64,000 nt of DNA from Flavobacteriaceae bacterium (GTDB taxonomy: Bacteria; Bacteroidota; Bacteroidia; Flavobacteriales; Flavobacteriaceae). Position 1 is the stretch's first letter. Each line of letters begins with the position of its first letter. The translations under genes and the position numbers were made by a program. Where the stretch lies: assembly GCA_016780345.1 (NCBI GenBank), contig JADHLZ010000004.1, positions 1 to 64,000 on the forward strand, written 5' to 3'. The notes beneath the pieces are model-generated. The model ran no database searches. It was not told the origin of the DNA and saw nothing but the letters and a program-made list of their open reading frames with translations. This document shows positions 38,379 to 44,120 of this stretch, one piece after another.

Positions 38379-38789
38379 ATGTATCCAGCTGAATTAGTTA
38401 AACCTATGAGAGAAGATTTAACTTCTGTAGGATTTATTGAATTGAAAGATTCCAATGATGTTAATACTAATCTTCCTAATTGTAAAACAGCTGTTATAAT
38501 TGTTAATTCAGTTTGTGGTTGTGCTGCTGCCAATGCTCGTCCAGGAGTTAAAAATTCATTAAATAACGATAAAAAGCCTGAAAAATTATTTACTGTTTTT
38601 GCTGGTGTAGACAAGGAAGCAACAGATGCTGCGAGGAACTTGATGATTCCTTTTCCTCCATCTTCACCATGTATTGCTTTATTTAAAGACGGCGAACTAG
38701 TTCATATGCTTGAGAGACATCATATTGAAGGAAGATCCTCTGAATTAATTAGTGAAAACTTAAAACAAGCATACAATCAATTTTGCTAA
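38379..38789 (+). CDS. BrxA/BrxB-family bacilliredoxin
   Basis: 136-residue thioredoxin-fold protein with the family's CGC active site (C46-G-C48 in NSVCGCAAANARPGV). In Firmicutes, bacilliredoxins remove bacillithiol from proteins; Bacteroidota members are common, and the thiol partner in this organism is an inference. No signal peptide. Monocistronic, with its stop overlapping that of the convergent kinase gene by 4 bp. Confidence 0.9.
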   Translation: MYPAELVKPMREDLTSVGFIELKDSNDVNTNLPNCKTAVIIVNSVCGCAAANARPGVKNSLNNDKKPEKLFTVFAGVDKEATDAARNLMIPFPPSSPCIALFKDGELVHMLERHHIEGRSSELISENLKQAYNQFC

Positions 38790-40243
38790 CTTTTTATAGG
38801 AAAAGTTATTGTAAAAGTTGTGCCTTTGTTTAATTCAGTATCAAAATCAATAATACCATTGTAAGACATAACAAGGTTTTTTACCATTCCTAAACCAAGA
38901 CCCATTCCTCCAGATTTTGTTGTAAAATTTGGTTCAAAAATATTAGAAATAACATCATCTGAAATTCCATGACCATTATCTTTAACATTTATTTCAACAA
39001 TATCTTCCTTTTTCTCAATTAGAACTTCTATTTTAGGATTAACAACATTTTGACAAGCATGAACTGAATTTTTAATTAAATTAGTAATAATTCTAACAAT
39101 TTGCGGTTTGTCAATTTCAACAATTATATTTTTTAAATCAGATTTAAAAGAAATATTTTCTTCTTTAAAAATTTCTAAAGCTAATTTAACTGCAAGTACA
39201 ATATTTGTTTTTTCTCCTTTTTGAATAGGCATTTCAGAAAAATTTGAAAAAGCGGAAGCTATCGAACTCATTGTTTCTATCTGTTGAATTATCGTTTGAG
39301 TAAATTCCTGAACTTTGTCTTTATTTTTTTTGTCATTTACTTTGAAGTTTCTTTCAAAGCTCTGTACACTTAGTTTCATTGGTGTCAAAGGGTTTTTTAT
39401 TTCATGCGCAACTTGTTTAGCCATCTGTCTCCATGCTTGTTCTTTATTAGATTGAGATAATTCTTTAACATTTTTATCAAGCATCTCAACCATGTTATTA
39501 TATGAATCAACTAAACTATTAACTTCTTTACTTCTTGCTTTAATTATAATCTTGGAATTTTTTTTATCCAATCTAGTCTGCTTCATTTTTAAAGCAATTT
39601 CTGAAATAGCTTTAGTCATGTATTCTGAAATAAAATACGATATTATAATAGAAAGAATCAGTAAAAAAAAGTAGACCTCTCCTAATATAATTAGGAATGA
39701 TTGTAATTCATAAGAGTTTAAATTATCATCATCGTAATAAGGAAGATTAAGAATCCATAGTGGTTTGAAATTATCATCCAAAATTAAGGAATAAGATGAT
39801 CTATATTGAAGATCATCTAATGTTGTAATTTGTATAACTTTATCGCCCTTTTGTTCTAAAATCTTTGAAAGAAGTTCTTTATCAATAAAATTAATTTCAT
39901 TTTTAGAGAGTGTAGAATTAATTAATGATCCGTCCAAGTTATATAAGCTAAATTTTACACTTTGAACGTCTGAAACTTCATATATTTTTTCAGCTAAAAT
40001 GGAGTCAAATTCTTTAATATTTTTTCTATCTCCAGCTTTATTTGAAAAGTAGGCTAAACTTCGTTGTATTTGAGCTTCTTTTCTTTCTAATCTCTTTGAA
40101 TGGTATTTATCAGATTGTGTTTTAAATTGAGGAATTGTAATTAAAGATATTAATATAAATGTAGCAACTACAATAATTGTCATTGCTAAAAAAATTCTAG
40201 CTCTTAATGATAGGTTTGTTTCAAAATTTAAATAATTTTTCAA
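38786..40243 (-). CDS. NtrY-like membrane sensor histidine kinase
   Basis: 485 residues: helix 1 (about 17-37), an extracytoplasmic sensor domain (about 40-180), helix 2 (about 183-205), a HAMP-like linker (about 205-260), the H-box with H280 (AKQVAHEIKNPLTPMKLS) and an ATPase domain with N-box (NLIKNSVHACQN), G1 (DNGHGISDDV) and G2 (GGMGLGLGMVKNL). KNPLTPMK is characteristic of NtrY-type kinases. No response regulator is in the window, so it is an orphan here. Its start overlaps the hemJ stop by 4 bp, making it the last gene of the AraC-hemH-hemJ unit. Confidence 0.9.
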   Translation of the reverse strand: MKNYLNFETNLSLRARIFLAMTIIVVATFILISLITIPQFKTQSDKYHSKRLERKEAQIQRSLAYFSNKAGDRKNIKEFDSILAEKIYEVSDVQSVKFSLYNLDGSLINSTLSKNEINFIDKELLSKILEQKGDKVIQITTLDDLQYRSSYSLILDDNFKPLWILNLPYYDDDNLNSYELQSFLIILGEVYFFLLILSIIISYFISEYMTKAISEIALKMKQTRLDKKNSKIIIKARSKEVNSLVDSYNNMVEMLDKNVKELSQSNKEQAWRQMAKQVAHEIKNPLTPMKLSVQSFERNFKVNDKKNKDKVQEFTQTIIQQIETMSSIASAFSNFSEMPIQKGEKTNIVLAVKLALEIFKEENISFKSDLKNIIVEIDKPQIVRIITNLIKNSVHACQNVVNPKIEVLIEKKEDIVEINVKDNGHGISDDVISNIFEPNFTTKSGGMGLGLGMVKNLVMSYNGIIDFDTELNKGTTFTITFPIKS

Positions 40244-40773
40244 TTTCTTAATATCTTATAAAGTTTAATTAAAACTAGAATCAATATTATAAATATTACT
40301 GTGAAGAATGTAAATAGAGTCCAATTCACTGTGTTTTTTAAAACTACTAAAAAAACAACTGAGACAAGAATCACACTTGTTACTTCATTCCAAATTCGCA
40401 TAAAATCTGAGGAATATTTTATAATTCCTGATTGTAATTCTTTTAAGATATAGTGAGTTTTAATATGATATAAAACAAGAGAAAAAACAAAAATTAATTT
40501 CGTGATCATCCATTTTTCATATAACCAATTTGGAACTAAAATCAATAACCATATTCCAAAGAATAAAGCCATAATTGCTGATGGCCAAGCAATTATAAAC
40601 CATAACCTTTCCATCATAACAGAAATCTGATTAGTTAAAATTTCCTTTTCCAATTTTTCCTTTTTAGAAGACTCAATAAAATATATAAATAATCTAGGAA
40701 TATAAAATAATCCCGCAAACCATGTAATTACAAAAATTATGTGTAAAGATTTAATTATGTTGTAATATTCCAA
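40240..40773 (-). CDS. hemJ: HemJ-type protoporphyrinogen oxidase (CopD-like)
   Basis: 177 residues with four to five helices. The N-terminal segment LHIIFVITWFAGLFYIPRLFIY (written here as its two halves LHIIFVITWFAG and LFYIPRLFIY) is the HemJ signature, with the conserved histidine (H11) and arginine; a second signature is KLIFVFSLVLYHIK around residue 91. HemJ oxidises protoporphyrinogen IX to protoporphyrin IX in bacteria without HemG/HemY. Location 8 bp after hemH supports this over a generic CopD label. Its end overlaps the sensor-kinase start. Confidence 0.82.
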   Translation of the reverse strand: MEYYNIIKSLHIIFVITWFAGLFYIPRLFIYFIESSKKEKLEKEILTNQISVMMERLWFIIAWPSAIMALFFGIWLLILVPNWLYEKWMITKLIFVFSLVLYHIKTHYILKELQSGIIKYSSDFMRIWNEVTSVILVSVVFLVVLKNTVNWTLFTFFTVIFIILILVLIKLYKILRN

Positions 40774-40781
40774 AATAATTT

Positions 40782-41801
40782 TTAATTAAGATTTGCCCAC
40801 TCGTCAATCCATCTGCTTAATGTTTTTACCCATTCTTTATCATCATTTAAACAAGGAACCACGTGAAATTCCTCTCCTCCTTTTTCAATAAAATCTTCTT
40901 TGGCCTCCATCGCAATTTCTTCTAAAGTTTCTAAACAATCGGAAACAAAAGCTGGAGTAACAATAGCCATTTTTTTGGTTCCAGTTTCTGCAAAATTTTC
41001 AACTACCTTATCTGTATATGGTTTTAGCCAAGGCTGACCAGCTAATCTAGACTGAAAGGAACTCGAATAAGACCCCTCATTTAGTTCTAAATACTCAGCA
41101 ACTAGCCTTGTTGTTTCATAACATTGATGTCGATAGCAATATTTATGGGCAGAGGATCTAGTTTGACAACAGCTTTGATCAATTTTACAATGAGATTTTG
41201 TAATATCTGTTTTTCGAATATGTCTCTCAGGAATACCATGATAAGAGAAAAGAATATGGTCCCATTCTTTTCCTTTTAAATATCTTTGAATCGAATTTGA
41301 TAAAACCCGTATGTAATCTTTGTGATTATAAAAAGCTGGTAAATTATTAAAGCGAATATTTGGGAATAACTCATTTTTTATTTTTTCAGCTAAAACTAAA
41401 ATTGTTTCAGTAGAAGCCATAGCATGTTGAGGATATAAAGGAATAAGTAATATTTCTTTAACACCTTTATCAACTAATTCTTGAATTCCTGACTTTATTG
41501 AGGGGTTTCCATATCTCATGGAGAGTGCAACTGGAATTGAGGTGATATTTTTTAATTTTTCCAATAATCTATAAGACAATACTATCAAAGGGGAACCTTC
41601 ATCCCACCATATTTTTTTGTAAGCTTTAGCTGATTTTTTGGGTCTAAAATTCAAAATTATTCCTTTAACCAATAGAGTCCTAAGCCATAACGGCTCATCA
41701 ATAACTCTTTCGTCCATTAGAAATTCCTTCAAATATTTTTTTACATCCTTAACATCAGTGCTATCGGGCGACCCTAAATTAACTAATAAAGCTCCTTTCA
41801 T
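40782..41801 (-). CDS. hemH: Ferrochelatase
   Basis: 339 residues. Active-site region FSYHGIPERHIRKTD (the His coordinates incoming iron), the C-terminal SRLAGQPWLKPYTD segment and EIAMEAKEDF are all typical of HemH, which inserts Fe(II) into protoporphyrin IX. A cysteine-rich stretch (CKIDQSCCQ, KYCYRHQCYETT) is notable but the classical [2Fe-2S] C-terminal cysteines are not evident. Between the AraC regulator (7 bp upstream) and hemJ (8 bp downstream) in the leftward heme unit. Confidence 0.95.
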   Translation of the reverse strand: MKGALLVNLGSPDSTDVKDVKKYLKEFLMDERVIDEPLWLRTLLVKGIILNFRPKKSAKAYKKIWWDEGSPLIVLSYRLLEKLKNITSIPVALSMRYGNPSIKSGIQELVDKGVKEILLIPLYPQHAMASTETILVLAEKIKNELFPNIRFNNLPAFYNHKDYIRVLSNSIQRYLKGKEWDHILFSYHGIPERHIRKTDITKSHCKIDQSCCQTRSSAHKYCYRHQCYETTRLVAEYLELNEGSYSSSFQSRLAGQPWLKPYTDKVVENFAETGTKKMAIVTPAFVSDCLETLEEIAMEAKEDFIEKGGEEFHVVPCLNDDKEWVKTLSRWIDEWANLN

Positions 41802-41808
41802 GTTTAAA

Positions 41809-42690
41809 TTAAATTGACATTAAATATTTTTTTGGAGTGGTTCCAAATTTTTTTTTAAACGCATTTATAAAATGTGTTGCTGTACTGTAACCTACTTTTA
41901 GCGCTACTTCATTCACATTGTATCTTCCAGATGACAATAGCCTTTTTGAAACCTGCATTTTATAATCCAATAGGAAAGAAAAAACTGAAGATCCGTAAAC
42001 TTGCTTGAAACCTTGTTTTAGTTTTTTTAAATTTATATCCACTTCTTTTGCAAGTTCGATTAAAGTAGGAGGTTCTATCATTTTTGAAATTATTATTTCT
42101 TTGGCAAGTTTTATTTTCTTTATGTTATTATCGTCAGCTAAGAAAGGGCACTGTTCTATGTCCATTTCTTTGTCTTTACTAAAATACAAACTCATCAACT
42201 CAAAAACTTTTCCTCTCAGATAAAGAGAGTGCATTGTGAGATTCAATGATTGTTGATACATTTGATTTAAAATTACAGCAATCATTGGGCCAATTTTTTT
42301 TTCTTTATATAACTTGTTTCCAGTATTTTCATTATTTAAAAACAAAATCTGATCCGCCTCATTTGAGAATAAACTATGAAATTTTTTAATTGAAATTAAA
42401 ATTGAAAGGACTTGACTTTCTGAATTTAAAACTAGGTTAATCGGCAATTCTTTTTCTGGGTTATATAATAAAATAGAGTTTTCATTCTCAACATTAAAAA
42501 TATAAGACCCTTCATTAAAAAAAAAATTAGCCATTCCCTTTAAACAAAAATGGAATTGTATATAGTCTTTTCCAATACTATAATTAAAATTTTCTTCATG
42601 ATCTCTATCATTTGTATGCTTGAGTAAAACTATACCCTCATCCACTTTAAAGCTTTCACTGGTCCCTTTTGCGATATTTTTTAAATTCAT
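41809..42690 (-). CDS. AraC-family regulator in the heme locus
   Basis: 293 residues. The N-terminal half (about 1-150) is a cupin-like sensing domain without a recognised ligand signature; the C-terminal 100 residues form the double helix-turn-helix of AraC proteins (LAKEVDINLKKLKQGFKQVYG, split here as LAKEVDINLKKL and KQGFKQVYG, then VNEVALKVGYSTATHFINAFKKKFG likewise across about 255-280). First gene of the leftward unit with hemH, hemJ and the kinase; divergent from hemA. It probably controls one or both heme operons. A 21-bp palindrome (42706-42726) lies 15 bp before its ATG. Confidence 0.9.
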   Translation of the reverse strand: MNLKNIAKGTSESFKVDEGIVLLKHTNDRDHEENFNYSIGKDYIQFHFCLKGMANFFFNEGSYIFNVENENSILLYNPEKELPINLVLNSESQVLSILISIKKFHSLFSNEADQILFLNNENTGNKLYKEKKIGPMIAVILNQMYQQSLNLTMHSLYLRGKVFELMSLYFSKDKEMDIEQCPFLADDNNIKKIKLAKEIIISKMIEPPTLIELAKEVDINLKKLKQGFKQVYGSSVFSFLLDYKMQVSKRLLSSGRYNVNEVALKVGYSTATHFINAFKKKFGTTPKKYLMSI

Positions 42691-42705
42691 AAAAAAAAAT
42701 ATTCT

Positions 42706-42726
42706 AATTTAGAATTGTTCTAAATT
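42706..42726. promoter_or_regulatory. 21-bp palindrome, Fur-superfamily-like operator
   Basis: Perfect 9-nt arms AATTTAGAA and TTCTAAATT around TTG. An overlapping second dyad, ATTCTAA-T-TTAGAAT, is at 42701-42715. The TTAGAAT-T-GTTCTAA core has the 7-1-7 form of Fur-family boxes (compare PerR TTATAAT-N-ATTATAA). It sits just upstream of the AraC gene and about 160 bp upstream of hemA. Confidence 0.55.
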
Positions 42727-42884
42727 GAAAATTATATATTTAAACATTTACTCTGTAAAAATATAAAATATATTAGTATTTAAATAACACTTTTTAGGAA
42801 AAAACTTATTGCGTTATTAATAGACCTTTAAGAGTTATTTTTTGAATAAGTGTAATAGTATTTTTACAGCTATAAAAAAATTAT

Positions 42885-44120
42885 TTGAAGACTCCTTTTT
42901 TTATCGTTGTAGGCATAAGCTACAAAGATGCTGACGCTTCTATAAGAGGTAAATTTAGCATAAACCCATCTTCATCTGAGAAGCTTATTAAATATTCCTC
43001 TAAAATCGGATTAAATAATATTGTGGTAAATTCAACATGTAATAGAGTTGAAATTTATTCGTCATTTAAAGATCCTAATTTACTTATTGATTTACTTTGT
43101 AAATACTCAAAAGGCACTATTAAAGAATTTAAAGATTTCGGATATATAATTAAAGGCAAGAAAGCGATTAAACACATTTTTAATGTTGGAACTGGTTTAG
43201 ACAGTCAAATATTAGGAGACTTTGAAATCATTGCCCAACTTAACAATAGTTTCATAAGATCCAAAAAACTAGGTGCTATTGATCCTTTATTTGACAGACT
43301 TTTCAACATGGTAAAACACTGTAGTAAAAGAATAAAAAATGAAACCAATCTTTCATCAGGAGCGACTTCAGTTTCTTACGCTGCCGTTAGATATATTCTT
43401 GATAATATTCCAGATTTAAAGTATAAAAAAATTCTTTTGTTTGGAGCAGGAAAAATTGGAAGAAATACTTGTGAGAATTTAGTTAAACATACTTCAAATA
43501 AGCATATAACATTAATAAATAGATCTGAAGATAAAGCGAAACTCATTTCAGGTAAATTTAAAGTTTTAATTGAAAACATTAAAAATCTTAATACTTCAAT
43601 TTCTAACTCAGACATTCTTATAGTAGCAACTGCAGCTGATAAACCTACGGTTACAAAAAAAATGATCCCTAAAGCTAAACCGCTTACGATTTTAGATTTA
43701 TCCGTTCCAAAAAATGTAGATGAAAATATATCAGAATTTAAAAATGTAGATTTACTTGACCTTGATTACTTATCAACCATTACAAATAATAATTTAGAAA
43801 ACAGAAAAAAATTCATTCCTGATGCGGAAAAAATAATTATAGAAATTATTAATGATTTTTATCTGTGGATTGAAACTCGAAAGTTTGCACCAACGATAAA
43901 TGCTTTAAAATTAAAATTTAAAAAAATTCAACAAAATAAAATTGACCTTCTCAAGAAAAAAACATCCACTTTTGATGACAATAGTTTGAAAGAAGTATCT
44001 GAACATTTAATACAAAAAATTACAAATCGAATTGCCAATCATTTAAGAGATAGTGATGATTTTGAGGAAGAATTAGAATCGATAAAAACAATTTTTCAAT
44101 TAAATCAAAATGATTACTAA
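42885..44120 (+). CDS. hemA: Glutamyl-tRNA reductase
   Basis: 411 residues from a TTG start at 42885. The nucleophile is C52 in NSTCNRVEIY; the NADPH-binding domain (about 175-300) has LLFGAGKIGRNT, and the C-terminal dimerisation helix follows. It reduces Glu-tRNA-Glu to glutamate-1-semialdehyde, the first committed step of the C5 route. First gene of hemA-C-D-E-F-B; it overlaps hemC by 11 bp. Upstream, the 194-bp divergent region with the AraC gene holds the palindrome at 42706; the hemA promoter itself is not clear-cut. Confidence 0.96.
   Translation: MKTPFFIVVGISYKDADASIRGKFSINPSSSEKLIKYSSKIGLNNIVVNSTCNRVEIYSSFKDPNLLIDLLCKYSKGTIKEFKDFGYIIKGKKAIKHIFNVGTGLDSQILGDFEIIAQLNNSFIRSKKLGAIDPLFDRLFNMVKHCSKRIKNETNLSSGATSVSYAAVRYILDNIPDLKYKKILLFGAGKIGRNTCENLVKHTSNKHITLINRSEDKAKLISGKFKVLIENIKNLNTSISNSDILIVATAADKPTVTKKMIPKAKPLTILDLSVPKNVDENISEFKNVDLLDLDYLSTITNNNLENRKKFIPDAEKIIIEIINDFYLWIETRKFAPTINALKLKFKKIQQNKIDLLKKKTSTFDDNSLKEVSEHLIQKITNRIANHLRDSDDFEEELESIKTIFQLNQNDY

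Follow-up and report, generated by a model that had tools for sequence, protein, structure and literature searches.

A predicted Fur box before an AraC-type regulator gene may couple heme synthesis to iron supply in Flavobacteriaceae

Between the gene of an AraC-family regulator and the divergent hemA gene of a Flavobacteriaceae genome lies a palindrome whose position raises the question of which protein reads it and which of the neighbouring genes it controls. The initial annotation of the window (the whole stretch of 64,000 nucleotides analysed here) had described it as a perfect 21-bp dyad lying 15 bp from the start of the AraC gene, and both statements hold: it reads AATTTAGAA-TTG-TTCTAAATT, with nine-base arms around three central bases, and leaves 15 bp between itself and the araC ATG (42690) and 158 bp between itself and the start codon of hemA. 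As argued below from sequence comparison, the ferrous-iron-responsive repressor Fur very probably binds this palindrome, which is kept before araC across this large marine family. Because it precedes a regulator gene that stands between two sets of heme genes, the dyad may couple heme production to iron supply.

Table 1. Genes and predicted regulatory features at the araC/hemA locus (window coordinates)
Feature	Position	Strand	Remarks
Sensor histidine kinase gene	38786..40243	-	4-bp overlap with hemJ
hemJ (UPF0093)	40240..40773	-	8 bp after hemH
hemH, ferrochelatase	40782..41801	-	7 bp after araC
AraC-family regulator gene	41809..42690	-	cupin-like N-domain, two-helix-turn-helix C-domain; HTH_18, HTH_AraC
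Overlapping exact 7-1-7 dyad, third half-site	42701..42715		ATTCTAA-T-TTAGAAT; poorly conserved
Fur box (predicted), perfect 9-3-9 dyad	42706..42726	-	inner 19-mer 42707-42725; in predicted araC 5' leader
araC promoter -7 box (predicted)	42756..42763	-	TATTTTTA, variant of TAnnTTTG; from alignment
Distal direct-repeat half, candidate AraC-protein site	42810..42818	+	TGCGTTATT
Proximal direct-repeat half	42831..42839	+	AGAGTTATT; at hemA -33 element position
hemA promoter -7 box (predicted)	42859..42866	+	TATTTTTA
hemA, glutamyl-tRNA reductase	42885..44120	+	first gene of divergent hem cluster

The close spacing of araC, hemH, hemJ and the kinase gene (Table 1) fits an operon. Among the 67 related loci with enough sequence, hemH lies on the araC strand in 40 and directly adjoins araC in 22, within the limits set in the script. 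The fold model of the AraC protein (pLDDT 79.9, pTM 0.59) has a cupin-like N-domain and an AraC-type C-domain, and Foldseek retrieved AraC-type regulators with a cupin-like N-domain, with whole-chain TM values of at most 0.38 for the top matches; neither the model nor Foldseek indicated a ligand.

The symmetry of the dyad is by itself at chance level in such DNA. The 64-kb window is 71% AT and holds three perfect 9-3-9 dyads, compared with 0-4 in 20 Markov-1 simulations; symmetry was accordingly dropped as evidence, and the dyad is significant because it is conserved across loci, not because it is symmetric. Raw counts in this genome (1.39 Mb, 78% complete) are equally uninformative, since reversed controls gave equal or higher numbers: the 17-mer TTTAGAANNNTTCTAAA at up to one mismatch gave 20 strand-matches at 10 places, as did its reversed control, and TTTAGAN5TCTAAA was found 31 times per strand against 70 for its control. 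The exact 17-mer occurs once in the genome, at the araC dyad. Two single matches were put down to chance, one in this genome (L005) lying between convergent genes and one in another (G019, locus L047) lying inside a reading frame. The annotation had further described three half-sites in one block with a 7-1-7 core. The block is indeed present at 42701-42726, and the 7-1-7 layout is exact for the overlapping second dyad; however, anything similar to that dyad was seen in only 18 of 114 loci examined, and the third half-site is thus mostly particular to this genome. For the main dyad, whose inner pair is T/G and whose central three bases differ between species, 7-3-7 is for these reasons a better description than a strict 7-1-7.

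A strong match to the AraC-type regulator (E<=1e-60) was found in 232 of 249 sampled Flavobacteriaceae genomes. We gathered 137 araC loci (30, plus 27 new ones and 80 named ones, the latter being the best-scoring 80), of which 126 were distinct after removal of 11 duplicates; hemA is divergent from araC in 123 of these, which formed the conservation set. Conservation between species, which the annotation had proposed to look for, is extensive: in 117 of the 123 loci, TTTAGAA-N3-TTCTAAA stands with up to two mismatches no more than 70 bp from the start of araC, although such counts are not independent trials, given the relatedness of the loci and the choice of the 80 named ones by score. Among 9788 other 70-bp windows from the same loci, taken as a control, 15 come within two mismatches and none within one. 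Over the 123 loci the 17-mer shows no mismatch in 46, one in 58, two in 13, three in one and at least five in five; the value for L038 is meaningless, as its upstream region runs off the contig. A good dyad before araC is absent from six of the 123 loci (L036, L039, L040, L075, L079 and L213). Separately, in two members of the genus (L026 in G007 and L027 in G009) no hemA was found beside araC, and the araC dyad is also missing. A weight matrix built from 103 sites, all of them in other genera (loci with AraC less than 65% identical), scores the window site at 25.7 bits; no other place in the 64 kb exceeds 8.7 bits.

The conserved sequence resembles a published box of the same order. A study of Riemerella anatipestifer predicted the Fur box ATTTAGAATTATTCTAAAT and reported that purified Fur bound promoter fragments, four of which were picked for gel shift (PMC5609570). 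The inner 19-mer of the window dyad is identical to this box at 18 of 19 bases. It should be noted that the published box is itself a prediction, that several of the eleven sites listed there match it poorly, and that the abstract of the study gives a different consensus of the E. coli type (PMC5609570). Metal-dependent Fur binding has also been described at rhuB, where the box is a near variant (PMC10986502), and at another receptor promoter (PMC7976709). The likeness to the Riemerella case extends to the position near a start codon and to TonB receptors among the targets, whereas neither of two Riemerella Fur papers mentions AraC, ferrochelatase or glutamyl-tRNA reductase in its main text.

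Copies near iron genes, which had likewise been suggested as a check, were found at several promoters. The second dyad of this genome lies between the genes for an FbpA-type ferric-binding protein, which has periplasmic iron-binding proteins among its best solved relatives, and a TonB-dependent receptor; of the 13 usable genus loci, 12 have it upstream of fbpA (up to two mismatches), L114 being without it and L121 being incomplete. The third precedes nqrA, where it is kept in 21 of 21 genus loci, about 95-109 bp upstream of the gene (e.g., L250-L270), and also occurs in more distant genomes (L061, L285), which suggests iron control of the Na-pumping respiratory enzyme. The fourth, which is weaker, is situated 6 bp before the start of a gene for an Mrp/NUBPL iron-sulfur carrier. 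With the extended motif TTTAGAAYNATTCTAAATAA at up to one mismatch, 60 genomes gave 129 strand-matches, where a palindrome may be counted once per strand, and the reversed pattern gave 4; in this genome only three places were found, namely araC, nqrA and the fbp/TonB receptor region. The 30 loci of this motif that were listed comprise araC/hemA (nine), feoB, mrp and nqrA (three each), and a TonB receptor, an FbpA-like protein, a ferredoxin and a cytochrome c (one each), and eight are without any iron link; the naming relied on Pfam for 16 proteins, and on resemblance or the place in the AraC search for the araC/hemA loci and L287, L291, L292, L293, L295 and L296. A Rieske-type lipoprotein/symporter promoter (Rieske assigned from a motif and a weak solved-structure match) carries the dyad in 8 of 18 genus loci and lacks it in this genome, and is retained as a side member only. 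As a separate observation, small DUF6686 proteins are encoded beside strong Fur-type dyads in two genera (L283 and, by resemblance, L287).

One FUR-family protein (PF01475) was found above the cut-off in this genome; since the assembly is 78% complete, a second Fur paralogue may be missing from it. The nearest solved relatives of the protein found are Fur (E 6e-19) and then PerR (9e-12), and NCBIfam ranks Fur models first, PerR next and Irr third, none of them over its cut-off: the best Fur model gives 70 bits against a cut-off of 220, so that equivalog level is not reached, and the Irr models give 38-39 bits against 150-170. Among 22 genomes of the genus, 18 encode one FUR protein, three encode two and one encodes none. 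That the protein passes no family cut-off, with PerR and Irr models also matching weakly, leaves some room for the view that the dyad serves another iron or peroxide factor, be it a PerR- or Irr-type paralogue or a regulator of unrelated type, for example MliR, which affects iron homeostasis in Bizionia (PMC9478572). However, we consider this improbable in view of the near-identity to a site shifted by a flavobacterial Fur, the iron uptake genes among the targets and the single FUR protein found; moreover, no catalase, dps or ahpC promoter was recognised among the 30 listed loci or the sites looked at in this genome. The earlier description of the dyad as a Fur-superfamily operator therefore stands, supported by conservation, recurrence at iron genes and the Riemerella match, and the dyad is better named a Fur box than a PerR box; neither PerR nor Irr is needed.

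In the alignment of the intergenic regions, four blocks are conserved and keep their order: first the -7 box of hemA, then a direct repeat, followed by the -7 box of araC and finally the Fur dyad. The predicted -7 boxes are variants of the consensus TAnnTTTG (PMC9723704), and that of araC was placed from the alignment; the automated scan picks a tied neighbouring match in this genome. In the window, an identical 11-mer, TATTTTTACAG, stands in opposite orientations at 42753-42763 and 42859-42869, in both divergent promoters, and each copy looks like a -7 box with its start site. Measured from start to start, the dyad follows the araC -7 box by 37-39 bp in the commonest layout (77 loci), and by exactly 38 bp in 69. 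The position of the dyad downstream of this box, within the predicted leader, fits iron-dependent repression of araC-hemH-hemJ, and the proposal that the unit of regulator, hemH, hemJ and kinase is its most direct target is thus supported. Just before the araC -7 box, a second palindrome, ATGACANNTGTCAT, occupies a mostly fixed place in 53 of the 123 loci (up to two mismatches; 13 of 5085 control windows), at about -92 from araC codon 1; it belongs to other genera (e.g., L035, L086 and L030) and, judged by eye on the alignment, is absent from that of the window.

The direct repeat consists in the alignment of ATAACGCT and GTATCGTT, 21 bp apart, and is found at up to two mismatches in 119 of the 123 loci, a count that is partly circular because the pattern was drawn from an alignment of the same loci. 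The results on spacing, distance and uniqueness are less circular. Pairs of the TAWCG type are spaced by 21 bp in 80 loci, as against at most nine for any other spacing from 15 to 29; the start of the proximal half lies 26 bp upstream of the -7 box of hemA in 109 of 119 loci; and the pattern has 16 matches in the 22 genus genomes, 15 of them at araC loci or an araC fragment and one elsewhere. The TTTG/TTG of a -33 element is missing from the hemA promoter in 99 of 116 loci. AraC-type proteins usually bind direct repeats of this sort, and the pair at 42810-42839, with its halves about two helical turns apart beside the target promoter, is for this reason likely a better candidate than the dyad for the AraC protein's own site.

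These findings bear on the idea, also raised in the initial annotation, that the AraC protein itself binds the dyad and regulates its own gene. Such autoregulation would agree with the 15-bp distance to araC and with the fact that most genomes of the genus hold a single exact copy of the dyad, at araC. Nonetheless it appears very unlikely, as the dyad is an inverted repeat with a spread well beyond araC, also standing before nqrA and fbpA in nearly all genus loci and before feoB and mrp elsewhere, while it is the conserved direct repeat nearby that has the form typical of AraC sites. Still less probable is an RNA hairpin in the araC leader: although the dyad lies in the predicted leader and its sequence would allow a 9-bp stem with a three-base loop, the arms retain their sequence rather than co-vary, pairing is often lost at the innermost positions (7 and 11), and the same dyad recurs about 95-109 bp upstream of nqrA. 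That the palindrome arose by chance in AT-rich DNA, as its symmetry alone would permit, is refuted by its family-wide conservation at a fixed position (117/123 against 15/9788 in the controls).

The comparative evidence for a Fur operator thus comprises the site itself, its conservation, its recurrence at iron genes, the match to a published box and the fixed promoter geometry. We estimate a probability of roughly four in five that the dyad is a Fur operator in the araC-hemH-hemJ leader that represses with iron, and that AraC then acts on hemA. According to this model, at sufficient iron a Fe-Fur dimer would occupy the dyad just downstream of the araC promoter and stop transcription, and iron shortage would lift the block, so that the AraC-type regulator and ferrochelatase would be produced. 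AraC would then bind the 21-bp-spaced direct repeat that appears to stand in for the -33 element of hemA, and would set the activity of the divergent hemA operon, most likely as an activator. We infer from the comparison that the Fur of this genome binds the dyad and represses, and, similarly, that the direct repeat is bound by AraC, with activation of hemA as the result; the sign of the latter action is a guess. Induction of a hemA activator under iron starvation is physiologically odd. Repression of hemA by AraC at low iron would be easier to reconcile with the physiology and is compatible with the position of the site. A broader proposal for heme entry in Flavobacteriaceae, in which Fur shuts off a dedicated AraC-type regulator (encoded here together with ferrochelatase), this regulator alone opens the -33-less hemA promoter by way of the 21-bp direct repeat, and the two together do the job that Irr does in rhizobia, is put forward tentatively, at slightly less than even odds.

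Each part of this arrangement has relatives among known systems. PchR, AlcR and YbtA are Fur-controlled AraC-type siderophore regulators, with a Fur box before a regulator gene that lies beside its target operon; at the present locus, by contrast, the target is heme synthesis. In B. subtilis, hemAXCDBL is under PerR, which likewise places a heme operon under FUR-family control, but with another box, directly and without an AraC-type relay, and together with peroxide rather than iron genes. Rhizobial Irr and its iron control element are alike in belonging to the Fur superfamily, in the iron control of heme synthesis and, it seems, in their TTCTAAA-type half-sites, and differ in that a Fur-like protein and iron-uptake targets are found here. 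The apo form of Irr binds DNA, with heme as the signal (PMC7762939).

The box itself is of a known kind, and the Fur-AraC-hemA arrangement is apparently undescribed; no report of Fur control of the araC/hemA region in flavobacteria was found in the open-licence literature searched, and a study of Bizionia calls for more work on whether iron genes are under the control of its Fur-related gene (PMC9478572). If the proposed arrangement is correct, a two-tier switch would be contained within one divergent promoter, and Fur would not act directly on the heme entry step. Little of the Fur regulon has been mapped in the Flavobacteriaceae, which are among the major groups of bacteria in the ocean. The conserved box thus offers a testable regulon (araC-hemH, fbpA/TonB receptor, nqr, feoB and mrp), and the locus a candidate regulator of heme synthesis with its own putative operator.
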